A stretch of 64,000 bases of DNA from a virus: positions 1-64,000 of IMG/VR virus record IMGVR_UViG_3300036770_003728, one strand, 5' to 3'. Positions 8,522 through 61,711 of the stretch are shown here, in pieces. Within the stretch, counting starts at the first letter, position 1, and each line of letters opens with the position of its first letter. Below the pieces are notes generated by a model that saw nothing but the letters and a program-made list of their open reading frames with translations, made no database searches and was not told the origin of the DNA. The position numbers and the translations under genes were made by a program.

Positions 8522-8905
8522 TTAAGTGCGTTTTGTTGCTGCTCGTTTTGCCATTGATTTCACAGTGGCTTGAGGATTATGAGCGCCACCGGGTTGATCC
8601 ATAACATCGTCGTTGGGTAGTGCATCATCCATATTATCAACTAACCCTTTGAGATATACATACTTGACACCGCTGTCATCGTCGCTGATATTTCGAATCA
8701 TATTCTTTACCGCAGAATTGTCTTTGACTAAATCTGCTAAGATATCCACATTGAACATTTCGCTGCCAGGCTTTTTCCTAACCAAATTTACTAGACTATC
8801 CACACGAATCTGATCAGTGCGCTCACGCAGTGTTTCTAATACACTGACCAAATTGGTAGCCGAGGGAGAAAATTCTCCCTCAAATGTAAACTCTCTGGCT
8901 CGCAT
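8522..8905 (-). CDS. Small head-associated protein with capsid-targeting-like N terminus
   Basis: A 127-residue protein beginning MRAREFTFEGEFS. The start resembles the T4 capsid-targeting sequence (MKTYQEFIAE then cleavage) with a possible protease cut after Glu9, although the residue two before Glu is Thr and not Leu or Ile. The rest is helical, acidic in the middle and basic at the end (SMAKRAATKRT), as expected for a DNA-facing internal protein. Its ATG shares one base with the stop of the upstream 239-residue gene. Packaging is inference. Confidence 0.6.
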   Translation of the reverse strand: MRAREFTFEGEFSPSATNLVSVLETLRERTDQIRVDSLVNLVRKKPGSEMFNVDILADLVKDNSAVKNMIRNISDDDSGVKYVYLKGLVDNMDDALPNDDVMDQPGGAHNPQATVKSMAKRAATKRT

Positions 8906-11149: not shown

Positions 11150-11500
11150 TTAAGCTACTGTGATGCTGGTACCTAGTGCAACTGTGGTGTTAGCATCTAG
11201 GAATTGATGTAAACGACGCTGAATAACAGCAGCGTCAACATTGTGACCATGCATAACAACGTGGATTTGACCACTGGTGTTGCTTGGGCTCATGTACATT
11301 AGAGGATTTAATTCGCTAACCACACGCTCAACAATTTGACCTGCTTCGTTAGCAGCATCGCCGTCTTCGTTTTGTAGGTTAACGGCTGTGTTGGTAGCAT
11401 CTTTTACAGTGATCAAAAATGCTTTATAATCAGCTGTACTAAACAATGTACCAGTGTTGAAATTGCCTAAATAACCATTAATTCTTGTAAATGTTGCCAT
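11150..11500 (-). CDS. Small probably abundant virion-type protein (116 aa)
   Basis: A 116-residue protein, MATFTRINGYLGNFNTGTLF..., with alternating short strands and a central helix, no cysteine, and threonine/asparagine/valine-rich composition like small capsid or decoration proteins. It forms a single-gene transcription unit: a good late box (GATAAATA), an AAAGGAAA ribosome site, then a strong terminator after the stop. Such a set-up suggests high late expression and a structural role, for example head decoration. No sequence signature confirms this. Confidence 0.65.
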   Translation of the reverse strand: MATFTRINGYLGNFNTGTLFSTADYKAFLITVKDATNTAVNLQNEDGDAANEAGQIVERVVSELNPLMYMSPSNTSGQIHVVMHGHNVDAAVIQRRLHQFLDANTTVALGTSITVA

Positions 11501-11556: not shown

Positions 11557-12627
11557 TTATTTTTTCGCATTGAAGCCGGCAAAATGCGCCGCAGTGAATC
11601 CACCACGTTGTACTAATTTTACTAATCCATGTTTACTGGGAAATACAAAACCTTCACCTTGGGGTTGGCCGTTTACAAACTGTTGAAACCCTTGTACTTG
11701 TTTTTCTAACTGTTGGGCAATATTTTCTTTGAAGTTGCTGATAGCGTTCCAGGTCTTAAACAAGGCTGTTAGTGCTGCTCTATTTTGTATAAGATAACCA
11801 TTGTTGTCATCGCCTATTAGTGCTTGAAATTGCTTGGCACTAACATTTGTACGTAGCCATTCACTAAGCGGCAAATTGGTTTTACCGATTTTGGTATGAA
11901 CCAAGTATTTGCTTAGTGCATCCTGTGCGGTCTTGGTCATGCCATGCAAAAATACATCTATGGCATTGCCATACTGACTAACTGCGCCTGCTGCTTGTTG
12001 TGCTAGATTACCTACTGCACGTACTCGGAATTTTACACCAGCACTGGGAGGAATAATAGCCACTTGGTTGTTGCTGCTTAATCCTTGACCATTCCATGGT
12101 GATTGGTTAAATTCGTGTACCACTATCAGTGCCCGGCGCCCAGAGATTAATTGTCCTAGTTCGCTGTCTACAGGGACATGATATTCTACTGTGACAGGTT
12201 TGAAAACAAATTGTCCTTGTACAGGTTTCAACGGTCCTACAAACATTAAGTCGCCTTTGAATACACCGGCTGTGTCGCCTACTGCGGCTTCTAATCCGGG
12301 CCATATCAGATTAATCTTAGCATAAAGGTCGGCTCGATTAGATCCGCGACTTTGGTCATACTGTATCCATTCGTTTGGACTATGCGGAAATACTCCTTTG
12401 GCAGGCATGTACTTGTCTGCAATAAAAAATTGCCCAGTTGCATCACGTCCAAAATATAAAGCAATCATACCATCCCATTTAATACTGATACTTTGTGGAT
12501 TAGTTGCTATACTTTGCAAGGCCTGTACTGATTGTGCTGCGGCTGCACTGCCGGCAAATATACTGTCCTCAGGGTGAGGAATGCGAGGACCTTCAGCTTC
12601 AATAAGATAATCTGTTAAGGGCTTCAT
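11557..12627 (-). CDS. Polynucleotide-ligase-like nucleotidyltransferase with capsid-targeting-like N terminus
   Basis: A 356-residue protein. SIKWDG at 48-53 fits ligase motif I (K-x-D-G, adenylated Lys50); FKGDLMF at 123-129 fits motif III; GEGFVF at 324-329 motif IV; and LVKLVQR at 335-341 motif V. The order and spacing fit the covalent nucleotidyltransferase fold of DNA and RNA ligases, with an insert of about 150 residues before motif IV. No OB-fold domain is evident after motif V. The N terminus MKPLTDYLIE-A closely resembles the T4 capsid-targeting sequence and its cleavage site. ATG overlaps the stop of the nucleotidyltransferase gene before it. Substrate unknown. Confidence 0.75.
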   Translation of the reverse strand: MKPLTDYLIEAEGPRIPHPEDSIFAGSAAAAQSVQALQSIATNPQSISIKWDGMIALYFGRDATGQFFIADKYMPAKGVFPHSPNEWIQYDQSRGSNRADLYAKINLIWPGLEAAVGDTAGVFKGDLMFVGPLKPVQGQFVFKPVTVEYHVPVDSELGQLISGRRALIVVHEFNQSPWNGQGLSSNNQVAIIPPSAGVKFRVRAVGNLAQQAAGAVSQYGNAIDVFLHGMTKTAQDALSKYLVHTKIGKTNLPLSEWLRTNVSAKQFQALIGDDNNGYLIQNRAALTALFKTWNAISNFKENIAQQLEKQVQGFQQFVNGQPQGEGFVFPSKHGLVKLVQRGGFTAAHFAGFNAKK

Positions 12628-13418
12628 TGTATACGATCCGTTAGATTTCTAAACCAAGCGGCTGTACCAGCTTGAGCAGTTTCCGGCAATCTAAATAATC
12701 CACGAGCAGCATCCTGTCTAGCCTGTGCTAGTTTGCCGTCGCGGTCTGGGTCTGTGGCCAATGCTGCCATAATGCTTTTAACACTGTTAAGGTCGCTTTC
12801 TTTAGCTTTGGGATTAAGCAAAATCTTCGCTACTTCTTTTCTAGTTCTTCCCACTACCTGATCGGTATCTCTAGTAACCAGTCGTCCTCCAAAAGCATCA
12901 AATTTCAAATTCTTAAATTTGGCCAAGCTGCTCATTAGCATAAAAACTTCTCTGCCCTTGAACTCGGGCTCATCATACATACCACGCGGGCCATGCTGAT
13001 GCCATGGTGCTACTACTGAAGCATCTTGTATGACCATTACATCAACTTGAGCCATGCCACGGCCGCCGGCAGCTGGTTTATAAGGAATTCCGATATGTAC
13101 ATTACGTCCACTGACCACGCTGGTGATACCCTGTTGTTCAAAATGCTGCTTGAGTAATTGTTTAGCTTCTTTTACAGGATCTTTGCTGTCTTGAGTTTTG
13201 AAAAACTCAACACAATCACTGGCTTCTACCATGATATCAATGTCGCCGCTTTCCACTTTGAACCCAGCACTGCCTATGTCTACCTGTAGTCCACGAGCGA
13301 TAGGTTTTGGCAACAGACCTTTGGCAACTGCTACTACTCCACGCACATCATCTCGTGCCACTGGATTAGAGTTGGGTATGGCGTTACCGCCTTCATATAT
13401 TTTAAGCAAGTTACTCAT
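12624..13418 (-). CDS. DNA polymerase beta-type nucleotidyltransferase
   Basis: A 264-residue protein from MSNLLKIYEGG at 13418; an upstream in-frame extension lies inside the preceding gene and lacks a ribosome site. IGS at 48-50 and GDIDIMV at 58-64 give the G-S...D-x-D signature of the polymerase beta superfamily, and QVDVMVI at 124-130 the third acidic residue. KNLKFDAFGGRLV follows. The start ATG lies inside the previous gene end (ATGAGTAA), and its stop overlaps the ligase-like start, so the two enzymes are co-translated. IYE-G at residues 7-10 could be a head-protease site. Substrate unknown. Confidence 0.78.
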   Translation of the reverse strand: MSNLLKIYEGGNAIPNSNPVARDDVRGVVAVAKGLLPKPIARGLQVDIGSAGFKVESGDIDIMVEASDCVEFFKTQDSKDPVKEAKQLLKQHFEQQGITSVVSGRNVHIGIPYKPAAGGRGMAQVDVMVIQDASVVAPWHQHGPRGMYDEPEFKGREVFMLMSSLAKFKNLKFDAFGGRLVTRDTDQVVGRTRKEVAKILLNPKAKESDLNSVKSIMAALATDPDRDGKLAQARQDAARGLFRLPETAQAGTAAWFRNLTDRIQ

Positions 13419-13656
13419 CGCGCAATTTCCTAATGCCACGAGCAAATTTTGCTGAATCACCACTGCGTATGCTGTTGAGTAATCTACGTTCTAGTTCAGC
13501 AGCTACCTCAGGTTGGTAATTTTCTTTAATGAACTGTAGAAGATTAATTGCACCTTGTATGACATTAGCGGCTCGAGTTTCCACAAAATTTTCTTTGTCT
13601 TTTCTCAGTCGCAAACTATCTAACTCAGCTAATATACTTCTAGTATGTTTTTGCAA
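13411..13656 (-). CDS. Small helical protein (81 aa), TTG start
   Basis: The frame opens with TTG at 13656 preceded by AGGAG at 6 bases, the only good ribosome site here. The 81 residues are two or three basic and acidic helices (ILAELDSLRLRKDKE, VAAELERRLLNSIRSGD), ending RKLRDE. The stop overlaps the nucleotidyltransferase start by 8 bases, so it leads that operon. A helical adaptor or DNA-binding role is possible but not shown. Confidence 0.65.
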   Translation of the reverse strand: MQKHTRSILAELDSLRLRKDKENFVETRAANVIQGAINLLQFIKENYQPEVAAELERRLLNSIRSGDSAKFARGIRKLRDE

Positions 13657-13691: not shown

Positions 13692-15077
13692 TTAAACTTC
13701 TTTACGTTTGAGTCCAGCCAACATTTGCTTGAGATCTCGACTTTGAGCAGTAACCTGTACAGGAGCACTAGGTTCAGATTCAGAACTCACCGAACTGCGT
13801 GTTTTAATTTGATCCATGATACTACTAGTACTGCGTTTAGCAGTATCATCTGGAATTCCTGGGTCGCTGATACGCATGGTTTCCATGTTATAGTCCAAGT
13901 CCACTTTCATACCGACCCCAGTACTGGATCGTGACTTCATACACTGTATTTGATACTTGCCACGTTCACGCATGTTGCGACTGGTGAAGATACCAAACAC
14001 ATTATCTGCGGTATTGATCTTACTAATACCACCCGAGATATGACTATGGTCGAACTCAACTTCTTCCACTGCTGAACGATTCAGCTGCGACGCTGTGATC
14101 ATAAGCACTGCTAATTCTTTACTTAAATTACGCAGTTCTTCTGATACATACTTGTCTTTAACAAACAAGTCATTGGGACTTACCTTGGCTGACACTGGCA
14201 TTAATAAATCTAAATAATCAATCATAACAAAATCTACGCGATGTCCTGTCTGTATCTGATACTCTTTTAAGAAACTGCGTATGTCATTGATAGTACTTTG
14301 TGCCGGCAAATACTTGATACGATAACTACCTGCACGTTTACTGGCTACACGTATTTTTAGTGCAGTATCATCAATACTGCGCCTAATTTCTTTGGTACTA
14401 ATATCATTCAACATAGCATCAGTTCTTAAACTACAGAGTTCTTCACTGAGTTCTAGTGTAACATACACACCATGTAAGCCTTGTTGTAGCCAGTTTAAGG
14501 CTATGTTCATCATAACCAAGCTCTTACCAGATCCAGATCCACCTGCAAAGATATTAAGTTCGCCACGACTGAATCCACCGTACATGATCTTATCCATTTG
14601 TGGCCAACCTGTGCTGACTTGTCCACCCGAATTAAAATAACGATTGATTCGAGCTGCTGGATCGGCCCAGTAATCTGTGCCTAGGTCTTTGGTCAAGCTA
14701 ATCTGTACAGCATCCTTGATTAGCTTTTCAACAGGATTATAATCCCCTTTTTCTAGTAAATCTGCACTTTTAAGAATAGCACGTTCTAGTTCTTGCCTAC
14801 GAGTAAAACTTTCAAACTCCTCTAAAAACCAAACCTGATGTTCTGCACTTAGTTCTGTATGACGCAGCTCAATACCAGTTACCGCTGTGATTTGTTCTAG
14901 TGTAGGTAACACACTGTATTTGGCAGAATGTTGACTGATAAACTTGGCTGCTTCTCTCAGGCTGCGATCAAAGTTTTCGGGGTTGTAGATGTTTTGAACT
15001 CGCACAAAACACTGAGCATCACTTAGCATGATCTCCAAAAATAATTTCTGGAGTTCCACAGGATAATTTTTTTCCAT
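13692..15077 (-). CDS. 41: Replicative DNA helicase (T4 gp41, DnaB family)
   Basis: A 461-residue hexameric 5'-3' helicase. Walker A is AGGSGSGKS near residues 177-185; the DnaB-type Walker B strand is VDFVMIDYLDLL near 285-296; and ITASQLNR near 335 is the sensor segment. The N-terminal 130 residues are the helical primase-interaction region. The length matches T4 gp41 (475). The gene starts 1 base after the primase stop, so helicase and primase are made together, as expected for the primosome. The C-terminal 60 residues are polar and probably flexible. Confidence 0.95.
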   Translation of the reverse strand: MEKNYPVELQKLFLEIMLSDAQCFVRVQNIYNPENFDRSLREAAKFISQHSAKYSVLPTLEQITAVTGIELRHTELSAEHQVWFLEEFESFTRRQELERAILKSADLLEKGDYNPVEKLIKDAVQISLTKDLGTDYWADPAARINRYFNSGGQVSTGWPQMDKIMYGGFSRGELNIFAGGSGSGKSLVMMNIALNWLQQGLHGVYVTLELSEELCSLRTDAMLNDISTKEIRRSIDDTALKIRVASKRAGSYRIKYLPAQSTINDIRSFLKEYQIQTGHRVDFVMIDYLDLLMPVSAKVSPNDLFVKDKYVSEELRNLSKELAVLMITASQLNRSAVEEVEFDHSHISGGISKINTADNVFGIFTSRNMRERGKYQIQCMKSRSSTGVGMKVDLDYNMETMRISDPGIPDDTAKRSTSSIMDQIKTRSSVSSESEPSAPVQVTAQSRDLKQMLAGLKRKEV

Positions 15078-40799: not shown

Positions 40800-40813
40800 A
40801 GATAGATTGTCTA
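40785..40813 (-). promoter_or_regulatory. Sigma70-type promoter TAGACA-17-TATACT for the sugar cassette
   Basis: -35 TAGACA at 40808-40813 and -10 TATACT at 40785-40790, spacer 17 bases; the leader to ATG 40756 contains GAGG. It overlaps the 3' end of the upstream 522-residue gene. Confidence 0.8.
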
Positions 40814-42379
40814 GCGTTTTTGCCTAACAGCGTTGTCTTTTTTGGGCCTATTTGTGCCAGAATCGGCGCCAGGAGGTTTAATACTAACACGCCGGCCGGT
40901 AACCACATTAGGTGCAGCCACTGGCTGTTTTTTCTTACCAGCGGTGTGGGCCGGTTGACTATCTTGTTGAGCAGGATCGTCAACGTCATTGGGCTCAGGC
41001 AACTGCTCGGGACGAGTTCCTGGAGGACGTAGCTTGAAACTAAAACCACCTTTGGTGGGATCACTGCCACCGCTTTTGGTTTCAATGGTAACAATGCCGT
41101 CTAGTTGAGCAGGCCACTGAGTAACAAACTTCATTATGCCAGTTTTATTGTCTACTTCGGCATACTGTTGAATAAAATTCATACCCAGTGTTTCTAATAT
41201 AGCACTTTGAAATTCTGGTACTTCTCCGCTGTTGATAATATTCATTACAGCTTTTTTAGTTTCATAAGTTAACTTACCACCATCACTGCCACTGCTACGA
41301 AGATTGGCAAATAGTTTACTAAATTTACTTGGCAATGGTGCGCTGCCTTTTTGTTTGATATTGTCAATGACCATAGCTATAACTTGATCACTCCACGGCA
41401 AAAACGGCTTAAACATTCCAGGAATCTTATCGCCATGTGTTTCTGCTAACACATTCATCACATAAAACACCTGGCTCACGCTGGTTGGTTTCATTAATGA
41501 CTTGTTTGAACAAATATCTAATATTCTTACCACAGTACTGTAGTCTGGGTTGTCTCGGACCGAATCTGGTATCTTAAGTCCGCTCATACTGGGTGCTGCA
41601 CCACCACCTGTGCCTTTGCTACTGATATTAACTGTGTGCCCAGTGGTACGATTGGTTACTTGAGCAAAACTATCTGCTAAAGGAGTATTGGCTTTGCTAG
41701 GAAAATTCAAAGTAAGGCTTTTAACATCTCCACCTAACCATTTCGTAAATGCGGCCTGTTTTCCTGGCCCACCGGCCCATTCTGATCTGCCAGTTACCAT
41801 GGCCAGCACACCAAGATATTCACCAGCATAATCAACTATACTAGTTTTAAGACCTTTGTCCTTGAGTAACTCGGGTGGGATTACAACAGGTTGCCCTGAC
41901 ACAATCTGCTTGGCCATTTGTATAACTGCTTGTCCATACGGAGTACTATTAAGCACTTCATTACTGGCCAACATCGAACCTAACTGCTTGCCAGCAATAG
42001 GTTGGTCTGTGATATTAATCTGACTGGGCTTAAGCAAGGCACTTTCTTTGCTGACTTCTTGTTCACCGTCTTGTCCGGGCACAGCACTGGCTCCACCAAA
42101 ATCACTGGTTTTTAAGAAGCTGCTCATGAGCCAAGATTGACCATTCACGTCCTGTACTGAATAAGATCCTTTGAAATTGTTTTTTTCGTGATCGGCTACA
42201 ATACGAGCCGCTTCCCTGGGATCAACTTGAACTTGGTCACCGTTTTGAGTATAGAAAGGCTGTCCAGCTTGGATACGTTGTATGACTTTTTCAAAGCGGC
42301 CAGGACGTTTGAGAATTTCACCAGGAGTAAGGAATTTGCCTTCTTGTAGTAGGTCAAGTTTGTTAAGTAAATCGCGCAT
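40811..42379 (-). CDS. Large putative internal virion protein with capsid-targeting-like N terminus
   Basis: A 522-residue protein beginning MRDLLNKLDLLQE-GKF, an amphipathic start with a possible gp21-type cut after Glu13 (L-Q-E). Residues about 210-275 (LTLNFPSKANTPLADSF, VNISSKGTGGGAAPS) may form a small nuclease-like or PLP-unlike domain, not assignable by eye. The last 80 residues are proline/lysine/arginine-rich (RPKKDNAVRQKR), suiting DNA contact in the head. A late box AATAAATA lies 4 bases before ATG. The packaging idea is inference from the N terminus and the basic tail. Confidence 0.65.
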   Translation of the reverse strand: MRDLLNKLDLLQEGKFLTPGEILKRPGRFEKVIQRIQAGQPFYTQNGDQVQVDPREAARIVADHEKNNFKGSYSVQDVNGQSWLMSSFLKTSDFGGASAVPGQDGEQEVSKESALLKPSQINITDQPIAGKQLGSMLASNEVLNSTPYGQAVIQMAKQIVSGQPVVIPPELLKDKGLKTSIVDYAGEYLGVLAMVTGRSEWAGGPGKQAAFTKWLGGDVKSLTLNFPSKANTPLADSFAQVTNRTTGHTVNISSKGTGGGAAPSMSGLKIPDSVRDNPDYSTVVRILDICSNKSLMKPTSVSQVFYVMNVLAETHGDKIPGMFKPFLPWSDQVIAMVIDNIKQKGSAPLPSKFSKLFANLRSSGSDGGKLTYETKKAVMNIINSGEVPEFQSAILETLGMNFIQQYAEVDNKTGIMKFVTQWPAQLDGIVTIETKSGGSDPTKGGFSFKLRPPGTRPEQLPEPNDVDDPAQQDSQPAHTAGKKKQPVAAPNVVTGRRVSIKPPGADSGTNRPKKDNAVRQKR

Positions 42380-49713: not shown

Positions 49714-49983
49714 TTATTTTTTGTCTACTGGTTTTTCGCCCGTCAAATATGGTCTCGAGAACCAAAGTTTGAACCATTCAGGTGTACCTGGTTGAATATT
49801 ATGTTCTCGTTCTAACCGTTGTTTTTCCATACCAGTTTTGCTGATGTTTATGCCTGTCATAGATTCAACTCGAGGTTCTACACCGGCAAGACGTTGTAGT
49901 TCACGCAAATCTTGTTCGCTTAAGAAAGCATCAGGGACTTGTTCTTGTGGAACAAAGTCTCCTGATTTAAAGTATTTTTGCAC
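49714..49983 (-). CDS. Small conserved protein next to the terminase (89 aa)
   Basis: An 89-residue protein: LSEQDLRELQRLAGVEPRVE near 21-40 and NIQPGTPEWFKLWFSRPYLT near 62-81. I recall the P-G-T-x-E-W-F-x-L-W-F pattern in small proteins beside gp17 in aquatic T4-like phages. It shares a base with the stop of the 622-residue gene. It may help terminase or prohead docking. The RLAGV motif recurs in the protein encoded after gp17. Confidence 0.7.
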   Translation of the reverse strand: MQKYFKSGDFVPQEQVPDAFLSEQDLRELQRLAGVEPRVESMTGINISKTGMEKQRLEREHNIQPGTPEWFKLWFSRPYLTGEKPVDKK

Positions 49984-51851
49984 TATTGTTGATTTAAATT
50001 TGGGGAAGAAACAGCTCGCTGGAAACCAAACTTCCTTGCGTCATGACTACCAAATGCCATAGATTTATTTTTATTACCACTACTAGGAACATAAGCTACC
50101 GCCTTAGTTCCATTAATATCAAGCATTACTTTAGTAAAATTAGGATCTTTTTCAAATCTCTTATCCAAATCGTACTCTTTAAAATTAACCGCCACCTGCA
50201 TATTTTCTGCACCCGGAAAACCATCGACATCAACATAAAGATTCTGACCTCGAACTGTGTGCCCAATAGTCTTAACTTTAACAGCAGGCAACGAGGCATT
50301 TGCGGCCATTTTTTGCTGCTGTGCTTGTGCGACAGTCGGAAGCGGTGTATCTGGCGCAGCTCGTGCATCTCCGCCCATAGCACCTAGAGCTAGTGCTCCA
50401 CCTAAGGCAGCAGCACCTGCATACTTTTTACCTTTGGCTACCCAATCACGCCAGCCTGCTTCTAATAACGCTTCAGTGGGCCTAATTCCTTTAGACTCTA
50501 GTAAGGCACCAAACTGTCGCTTGAATTCAGCTTCACTTATTTTTTTTTTAGGTGGAGCTTTTTTATCAGCTACGGCCTTTTTCATTGGCTCTTTACGATC
50601 ACCATCTTTATCCATGTCTAGAAAATCTGGCTTGCCACCTTTTTTAGCTTCCGCCACACCTTGCTCTGGCAAATTAGGTTTACGATGTTTTCCATGTGCA
50701 TTTTTTATACTGCCTTTGAGACTGGTTATTTGATCTCTTGATGGAAGACCTTTTCTTGGTCCTCTTGATACTGGTTCACCTGTACCTAGGCGGCCAACTC
50801 CCTTTTCCAATGGATCTAGGCGATCATATTTGTCACCTACACCGCCCATTCTACGCTTTTGCCCCGGATCGTTTTCTGGACGCTCAGGAAAATCGTAGCC
50901 GTATCCGATGTCGTCATAATCGTCGCTGTCCCCGGGTTCTTGGGTATACAATTTGTCTTTGTACTTAGGATCACGCCATTTGGCCACTTCCGCTACATCT
51001 TTGCTGACTTTAAACTCAGCAAGAGCCTCGGTTAACTGTTTTTCTAACGCAGCCAACTCTTGGGCTTCACGCATGTTCATGGGATTGTCGCCACCTGAAA
51101 CCTTAGGGTAACTATTCTTGGGACGATTTAAGTCGTTGCCCTGTTGCATTTGAACTTCAACACCCTGTACTTCAGGTGCTGGTTCATTAGCATAAGCAGC
51201 TTCTTCCATTTCAGCATCATGGCTGGCACTTGCGGGTCCAGCAATACCACTGAGCTTGAGTAACTGTGCTAGTTGTTCAGCAGCTTGACCTTGCGCCGTT
51301 ACGGTTAGACTCTTGCTGCCTGTGCGTGTATCGGTGCTGGCATTGATGTTCATGCCCGACTCTTGTTCTTGCTGACCGCCCATCATTGCTTGATCATAGC
51401 ATTCACCTAGGCGCTCAATGCTTTCATTTTTCTTACTGCGTTTCCAGCTGGTAGCATAAAGCACTTCCATGCCTTTCTTTTTACCATACTGTTTAATAAA
51501 CTTGTCTTTGTTGCTCTTAACCCAATCTTCTTGACCAGGTGCAGCTTTTTCTTTTAATTCGCTTTCTTCGATGGTTTCTTTGTCATCGTCATCTTTTTCT
51601 TCGTCCTCAGACTCTTCTAAGTCATCTTCTTTTTCTTCATCTTTGTCATCGGACTCTTTGACTTGATACTTTTTACCATCGACTTCAAAATCTTTTTTAC
51701 CGGCGGCTTTGGCTTTGGCTAACTCACCAGAGAACTCATTGCCTTCTTGAGTATCTTCTTCGTCTACTTTCTTTTCTTTCTTACTACTTTCAGTGAGAGT
51801 TTGCTTTTTTTCAAGTTGACTCAACGTGGCTAGTATTTTAGCGAAATCCAT
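49983..51851 (-). CDS. Large acidic, proteolysis-prone head core/internal protein (622 aa)
   Basis: A 622-residue protein. Residues 1-105 are dominated by E, D and K (KKEKKVDEED, DDLEESEDEEKDDDDKE); 270-310 an A/E/L helix (AALEKQLTEALAEFKVSKDV); near 420-436 FLDMDKDGDRKEPMKKA is an EF-hand-like D-x-D-x-D-G loop; near 466-476 are LLES and LLEA, sites of gp21 type; then a hydrophobic A/G stretch and a beta-rich end. This composition and the place between gp16 and gp17 suit a scaffold or internal protein cut during head maturation. No enzymatic motif. Confidence 0.65.
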   Translation of the reverse strand: MDFAKILATLSQLEKKQTLTESSKKEKKVDEEDTQEGNEFSGELAKAKAAGKKDFEVDGKKYQVKESDDKDEEKEDDLEESEDEEKDDDDKETIEESELKEKAAPGQEDWVKSNKDKFIKQYGKKKGMEVLYATSWKRSKKNESIERLGECYDQAMMGGQQEQESGMNINASTDTRTGSKSLTVTAQGQAAEQLAQLLKLSGIAGPASASHDAEMEEAAYANEPAPEVQGVEVQMQQGNDLNRPKNSYPKVSGGDNPMNMREAQELAALEKQLTEALAEFKVSKDVAEVAKWRDPKYKDKLYTQEPGDSDDYDDIGYGYDFPERPENDPGQKRRMGGVGDKYDRLDPLEKGVGRLGTGEPVSRGPRKGLPSRDQITSLKGSIKNAHGKHRKPNLPEQGVAEAKKGGKPDFLDMDKDGDRKEPMKKAVADKKAPPKKKISEAEFKRQFGALLESKGIRPTEALLEAGWRDWVAKGKKYAGAAALGGALALGAMGGDARAAPDTPLPTVAQAQQQKMAANASLPAVKVKTIGHTVRGQNLYVDVDGFPGAENMQVAVNFKEYDLDKRFEKDPNFTKVMLDINGTKAVAYVPSSGNKNKSMAFGSHDARKFGFQRAVSSPNLNQQ

Positions 51852-61330: not shown

Positions 61331-61708
61331 TCAAACCCCGTAACGGTTTCTTTTCTTACTGGCAGTAGGACTCTTTTTGTTTACCGAATTAGATTCACGG
61401 CTTTTTTGATCTTGTACTACATGATCAACATCGCTGTTGATTACATTAAATGCTTGATGCATCATGTCATGCTCTAGTTCTGTGTAGGGTACCGCTACAT
61501 TTTTACTATGAAACCAAGTACGGTCATCTATAGGCAGTTTATCCTTACTGCCATCGGCCATTGCAGCCGCCATACCTACACGATAAAAGTTATAGGTTCC
61601 ATTAGTTTTATAGCCATCTCCATAGGCATGAGTACGATGCATAGCTTTACTATGTGACTTAGGCAATTTACCTTTATGCCCTTCTAATATAATTTCATTG
61701 ATTTTCAT
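61331..61708 (-). CDS. Small capsid-targeted-like protein, paralogue B (125 aa)
   Basis: A 125-residue protein starting MKINEIILE-GHKG, with an I-L-E cleavage-type site. YNFYRVGMAAAMADGSKDKL near 39-58 and KNVAVPYTELEHDMMHQAFN near 69-88 parallel the downstream gene, with a basic end (KKSPTASKKRNRYGV). Starts 3 bases after the connector-type gene. The shared plan marks an old duplication. Likely an internal head protein injected with the DNA, by analogy with T4 IP proteins. Confidence 0.65.
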   Translation of the reverse strand: MKINEIILEGHKGKLPKSHSKAMHRTHAYGDGYKTNGTYNFYRVGMAAAMADGSKDKLPIDDRTWFHSKNVAVPYTELEHDMMHQAFNVINSDVDHVVQDQKSRESNSVNKKSPTASKKRNRYGV

Positions 61709-61711
61709 TGT

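Follow-up and report, generated by a model that had tools for sequence, protein, structure and literature searches.

Conserved active sites and capsid-targeting-type leaders in a putative polymerase-ligase pair of a myovirus-type phage

Why should two overlapping phage genes, one encoding a polymerase-like nucleotidyltransferase (NTase) and the other a ligase-like protein, both begin with a short leader of the kind found on the internal head proteins of phage T4? The question is raised by a 64,000-nucleotide stretch of DNA (the window) from the 76,243-base IMG/VR virus record IMGVR_UViG_3300036770_003728, in which the gene for the NTase, P0002 (264 residues, 12624–13418, ATG at 13418), precedes that for the ligase-like P0001 (356 residues, 11557–12627). 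Coordinates are those of the window unless a locus is named, and all window features given here lie on its minus strand. A preliminary description of the window had placed both open reading frames (ORFs), their catalytic motifs and an ATGA stop-start overlap between them (12624–12627), all of which are present, and had proposed a packaged two-enzyme kit for repair or tagging.

We computed motifs, residue conservation, how the P0002 model matches known folds, how often the two genes are linked or fused, and the pattern of their leaders, drawing relatives from four scans of viral contigs that returned about 170 loci, in which the gene starts of metagenomic loci are inferred ones. The proposal is partly supported: catalytic residues are invariant, most relatives have the two genes side by side or fused, and the leaders favour capsid targeting. 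We consider it rather probable that P0002 and P0001 constitute a prohead-targeted, packaged and injected pair of gap-filling and sealing enzymes.

Active sites, folds and linkage of the two proteins

P0002 contains GS (residues 49–50), GDIDIMV (58–64) and VDVMV (125–129), corresponding to the GS...GDID signature and third aspartate of the polymerase-beta superfamily, Pol X type. The first two predicted metal-binding aspartates lie in GDID (residues 58–61; 13236–13247) and the third is Asp126 (13041–13043). In an alignment of 78 relatives, G49, G52, G58, D59, D61 and D126 are invariant and S50 is conserved in at least 90%. When the AlphaFold2 (AF2) model of P0002, with a mean predicted local distance difference test score (pLDDT) of 86, was searched against PDB, all 50 of the matches listed were DNA polymerase lambda (best E=1.7e-7, probability 1.00, about 200 columns). 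The earlier assignment to a polymerase-beta-type NTase is thus borne out by motifs and fold, and can be narrowed to a polymerase-lambda-like protein. P0002 matches no known family in searches of Pfam, PHROG and NCBIfam, no relatives were found in bacterial or archaeal genomes, and it is a new, uncharacterised phage protein family.

P0001 is a member of DUF6267 (PF19782, E=7.3e-27; 95.1 bits against a curated cut-off of 27) and of phrog_455, and 90/90 of its relatives also match DUF6267. It carries KWDG (residues 50–53), GDLMF (125–129), EGFVF (325–329) and KLV (337–339), that is, motifs I, III, IV and V of the covalent nucleotidyltransferases (ligases and capping enzymes), conserved in order. 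Lys50 of motif I, the lysine predicted to be adenylated, is encoded at 12478–12480 and Glu325-Gly326 of motif IV at 11650–11655; across the alignment of 90 relatives, K50, D52, G53, D126, E325 and G326 are invariant and K337 is conserved in at least 90%. The invariance of these residues, and of those in the 78 relatives of P0002, indicates strong constraint on the two active sites. Conservation of Lys50 and of the aspartates was one of two points on which the preliminary description had, in advance, staked its proposal, and it is borne out.

The AF2 model of P0001 is of high confidence (pLDDT 94), and among the 50 PDB fold matches listed for it, 12 are chains of ligases or capping enzymes, which also take the first two ranks; they comprise fungal tRNA ligase, mRNA capping enzyme or guanylyltransferase, a phage ligase and African swine fever virus (ASFV) ligase. 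In the viral model library BFVD the closest matches are DUF6267 relatives, several with fused cytidyltransferase-like domains, and the first match named outside that group is an RNA ligase (E=1.4e-3, probability 0.94) of 324 residues from Agrobacterium phage Atu_ph07, equal in length to Atu_ph07 gp066, which bears the ligase-type motifs KLDGS and EGVVF. No significant similarity emerged when P0001 was aligned by profile with T4 RNA ligase 2, with a part of T4 DNA ligase and with gp066. Searching PDB, Pfam and NCBIfam with the two sequences gave no significant match except DUF6267 for P0001, whose Pfam scan added just one sub-threshold MIT match. On the motifs, together with weak fold evidence, we take P0001 to be a divergent covalent nucleotidyltransferase of ligase type, predicted to form lysyl-AMP and to join ends. 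The ATP-dependent DNA ligase profile PF01068 has no match at E<=1 in the phage's own record. A canonical DNA ligase is also encoded in 3/6 DUF6267 records checked, which suggests a special role for the DUF6267 protein rather than one in replication.

The two genes are linked. DUF6267 accompanies the NTase in 68 of the loci that were picked out by the NTase, and in the remaining 6 the contig breaks off. Among those selected by DUF6267, an NTase is present in 58 (35 adjacent, 19 fused, 3 within 1.5 kb and 1 farther), while 3 sit at a contig edge. The genes that overlap in the window are fused in 24 ORFs among the relatives.

Two kinds of variation on this arrangement were observed. About 30 loci (e.g. 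L021, 3196–4212, and L143, 1246–2265) have a second, different GDID-type protein between the NTase and DUF6267, with GSS...YGDIDLQM...VQIDFMW motifs and its own leader of MKIFEILRE/GG type (here and below a slash marks the predicted cut). In L121, L125, L127, L137, L032 and L071 the NTase is fused behind an extra N-terminal region, giving a polyprotein-like product; this region has its own leader, MKVNDIINE/G, and a protease-type site ahead of the NTase.

Leaders and evidence from virions

Both proteins have N-termini that are disordered in the models (pLDDT <50 for residues 1–12 of P0001 and 1–10 of P0002) and that end in [LIV]-x-E/[AGS]. The predicted leaders are MKPLTDYLIE/A in P0001 (12598–12627), with cleavage after Glu10, and MSNLLKIYE/GG in P0002 (13392–13418), the latter resting also on the pattern at P3, two residues before the glutamate. 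Among distinct separate relatives of P0001, 35/58 have [LIV]-x-E-[AGS] ahead of a conserved H-x-ED, compared with a mean of 5.5 (maximum 13) in shuffled segments and 0.8 in internal windows. In the fused proteins the site recurs in the linker in 8/12 distinct cases, where 1.3 would be expected (maximum 6). Among P0002 relatives, chosen by their EGG motif, the residue two before the glutamate is L, I or V in 87/87 distinct sequences, and the residue directly before it is of 12 types.

A stricter leader pattern, defined after examples had been seen, occurs at 87/2769 N-terminal methionines and at 2/9047 internal ones, and is found in 15 unrelated families. A control in T4, run later, retrieved ipII and ipIII only among the 64 proteins tested, both being internal virion proteins. 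The looser site is present in the T4 head precursors gp22, gp23 and gp24, and in several relatives the precursors of capsid, scaffold and protease likewise have sites of this looser type. The leader of P0001 had been described as very close to that of T4, which is an overstatement: MKPLTDYLIEA agrees with MKTYQEFIAEA of ipII and ipIII at 4/11 positions, and the nearer likeness is found in a relative (L013), whose MKTYREFLTEA agrees at 8/11. We make no claim of leader enrichment among the window's own genes, because the loose pattern is expected several times by chance in about 65 genes.

The pair resembles T4 IPI, IPII, IPIII and Alt, whose capsid-targeting sequences are cut by gp21, in having a short leader with a hydrophobic residue, any residue and glutamate before a small residue. 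In IPIII, the first 10 residues are those required for incorporation into the head (PMC9026906). The T4 internal proteins that have been described are inhibitors or an ADP-ribosyltransferase, unlike the polymerase-ligase pair considered here.

Four other proteins of the window have features of this kind. A 125-residue protein (61334–61711) starts with MKINEIILE/G, a leader of the same type; it has no convincing family match and is counted among the 15 families above. A 127-residue protein (8522–8905) starts with MRAREFTFE/GE, and similar proteins of 124–136 residues in other loci (e.g. in L015, L019 and L032) make up a 12-member family whose leader, MRASEFVIE/A or the like, is clear. A 522-residue protein (40811–42379) begins in leader-like fashion with MRDLLNKLDLLQE/G; no family was found for it, nor any relative among the loci. 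Its interpretation as a PD-(D/E)xK nuclease comparable to the gene that precedes DUF6267 in phage Melnitz was unsupported. Lastly, an acidic, low-complexity protein of 622 residues (49983–51851) has several LxE-[AS] sites and may be a core or internal protein that undergoes cleavage.

A protease of the kind that such leaders would require is encoded by every long relative in which the head genes are present: Peptidase_S77, the family of the T4 prohead protease gp21, is present in all 7 relatives' records with a gp23 match above the cut-off. In phage PA5oct, a distant homologue of P0002, EST35_0231 (profile E=2e-17), is annotated in its record as 'structural protein, ESI-MS/MS' (electrospray ionisation tandem mass spectrometry), like many of its neighbours. 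In Atu_ph07 the homologue of P0002 is gp065 (E=1.9e-20), which, like gp066, falls inside the cluster of coding sequences 31–76, to which 29 virion proteins identified by mass spectrometry belong, not listed by name in the text (PMC6102473). A cytidyltransferase adjoining DUF6267 has been found in virions of the cyanophages S-SM1 (PMC3037559) and S-CREM2 (PMC10665884).

Gene order and neighbouring genes

Other proteins of the record match contractile tail sheath, tail tube, head-closure protein, large terminase, DnaB-like helicase, primase and single-strand binding protein, which identifies it as a myovirus-type phage; the record is probably a fragment. The pair is preceded by P0003 (81 residues, TTG start, 13411–13656), the small overlapping protein already remarked upon in the preliminary description, which overlaps the P0002 gene by 8 bases and matches phrog_11854, 'virion structural protein' (E=6.4e-15). 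P0003 is kept ahead of the pair in relatives, its homologue in Atu_ph07 being gp068. Upstream of it lies a DnaB-like replicative helicase (13692–15077; PF03796, E=8.7e-22; phrog_19, E=3.8e-68), which occupies the same place in relatives. Downstream of the pair, a conserved 116-residue protein with no assigned function (11150–11500) has its counterpart in a similar small gene after DUF6267 in relatives; such a gene, with a MAQFTR-type start, follows DUF6267 in L053, L056, L040, L057, L059, L033 and L066.

The window shares with several large relatives the order primase, helicase, P0003, a variable slot, DUF6267 and two small genes, the slot being filled by the NTase or by another protein. Atu_ph07 is similarly arranged, from the primase-like gp071 and the helicase gp070 through gp069, gp068, gp067 and gp066 to gp065. 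In a 372-kb contig (L104, L105), DUF6267 and an HIGH-type nucleotidyltransferase motif, GRMNPPTVGH, share one open frame. At the Atu_ph07 locus (L195, 8643–11735; gp062–gp059), tandem related genes of YRG...NS type, ADP-ribosyltransferase-like by eye, lie downstream of the NTase, and several of them start with MRWxQLxE/A.

Proposed function and its alternatives

We infer ligase activity, protease cleavage, packaging in this phage, injection and a substrate as parts of the following scheme. P0002, as a minimal polymerase-beta/lambda-type NTase, would fill short gaps or add nucleotides, and P0001, adenylated at Lys50, would seal the nick that remains. The disordered leaders would take both into the prohead core, a prohead protease of T4 gp21 type would remove them, and the mature enzymes would be packed with the genome and then injected. 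Their most likely task would be the mending of breaks or gaps in incoming DNA, and failing that the repair of nucleic acid that the host has cleaved at an early stage of infection.

Pairs of this general kind are familiar from elsewhere. Bacterial LigD combines a polymerase and a ligase in end joining, its polymerase being of primase type, and ASFV encodes Pol X plus a ligase. Like these, the present pair would couple a gap-filling polymerase with a ligase, and in ASFV the polymerase is of Pol X type; LigD differs in its primase-type polymerase, and P0001 differs in having no significant sequence match to a DNA ligase. The DUF6267 proteins of cyanophages (T4-GC190) resemble P0001 in lying beside, or being fused to, an enzyme of nucleotidyltransferase type, which there is a HIGH cytidylyltransferase (PF01467) and here is of polymerase-beta type. 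Neither of the two cyanophage DUF6267 proteins examined has a leader, whereas that of Melnitz has a possible one.

Several results weigh against the packaged gap-filling pair. The query-normalised template modelling (TM) scores of P0002 against Pol lambda are 0.39–0.48, i.e. below 0.5, and the Pfam profile DNA_pol_B_palm has no match at E<=1 in the record, for which reason we call P0002 Pol-lambda-like and do not file it as a member of Pol X. P0001 has no significant PDB fold match (best E=0.35), nor a significant match to any ligase in sequence and profile searches. The co-occurrence of the two genes, on which the preliminary description had asked for a survey, holds for most relatives and is not universal: 34 DUF6267-selected loci lack a detectable NTase despite at least 1.2 kb of upstream sequence, so that the NTase seems to need the ligase-like protein and not the reverse. 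No match to the T4 major capsid family gp23 or to Peptidase_S77 was found anywhere in the 76-kb record, which we read as an effect of fragmentation since the record is just 76 kb long. EST35_0231 of PA5oct starts with MSGNAF and has no leader, hence its detection in the virion is no test of the leader model, and the record of the ligase-like EST35_0228 from the same phage carries no ESI-MS/MS note. In the published virion list of S-CREM2, no DUF6267 protein is recognisable (PMC10665884). Capsid targeting, as first proposed, nonetheless has strong indirect support in the shared leader, the protease-type site, its recurrence in linkers, the disordered N-termini, the protease encoded with head genes and the PA5oct homologue of P0002.

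With regard to the substrate, the Pol lambda fold and the nearby replication genes favour DNA. RNA is a real alternative, given that the ligase-like folds closest to P0001 belong to enzymes acting on RNA and that pairs of a polymerase-beta enzyme and an RNA ligase are known in jumbo phages. The best-surviving rival, which we rate as possible yet clearly less probable than the DNA reading, is that P0001 is an RNA ligase, that P0002 puts back the nucleotides missing from tRNAs or other RNAs after cleavage by host anticodon nucleases, and that packaging allows repair to be immediate. It gains from the folds nearest to P0001 outside its own family (fungal tRNA ligase, mRNA guanylyltransferases and the Atu_ph07 RNA ligase) and from the cooperation of the nucleotidyltransferase RlaP with an ATP-grasp RNA ligase in jumbo phages (PMC7824862), where, as here, a polymerase-beta-superfamily enzyme is genetically linked to a ligase. 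It loses from the modelling of P0002 as DNA polymerase lambda, and from the position of the pair beside replicative primase and helicase genes. RlaP itself (PF10127) has no match at E<=1 in the record and four relatives; P0002 thus departs from that system in its profile and its nearest model, and the leaders of the present pair point to packaging.

The same replicative neighbours would suit ordinary intracellular enzymes of replication and repair, whose N-terminal patterns were coincidental or served another role and whose homologues reached virion preparations by carry-over. The detection of the PA5oct homologue despite its missing leader agrees with this, as does the caution of the S-CREM2 authors over carry-over of cytidyltransferases and kinases (PMC10665884). 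We nevertheless regard it as unlikely, slightly more so than RNA repair, for the leader pattern is common to unrelated proteins and confined to their N-termini, the site recurs in fusion linkers and fits T4 protease substrates, and half of the DUF6267 records checked encode a canonical DNA ligase as well. Least probable, and in our view improbable, is an injected effector pair that nucleotidylates a host molecule (by AMPylation, or capping of RNA or protein) and repairs no nucleic acid: nucleotidyltransferases of both the covalent and the polymerase-beta type can act on proteins or small molecules, the Atu_ph07 NTase is followed by the YRG-type genes noted above, some with LTE/A or LNE/A starts, and other phages have DUF6267 joined to cytidyltransferase-like domains in one protein, but a Pol-lambda-like fold with a ligase-like partner points to nucleic acid.

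If the packaged gap-filling and sealing pair is correct, it would provide a function for DUF6267, a family with members in several hundred records of cyanophages and other phages, and would add an uncharacterised family to the phage polymerases. We suggest, much more tentatively, that large tailed phages may carry in the capsid a pre-made break-repair machine, comprising a Pol-lambda-like polymerase and a ligase of a new class, synthesised either with separate tags or as a single fusion that the prohead protease cuts into the individual enzymes, and able to restore the incoming genome before phage gene expression. On either reading, phages would inject enzymes of DNA or RNA repair besides inhibitors and ADP-ribosyltransferases, and the combination of leader and protease site would offer a simple rule for spotting packaged proteins in metagenomic phages.
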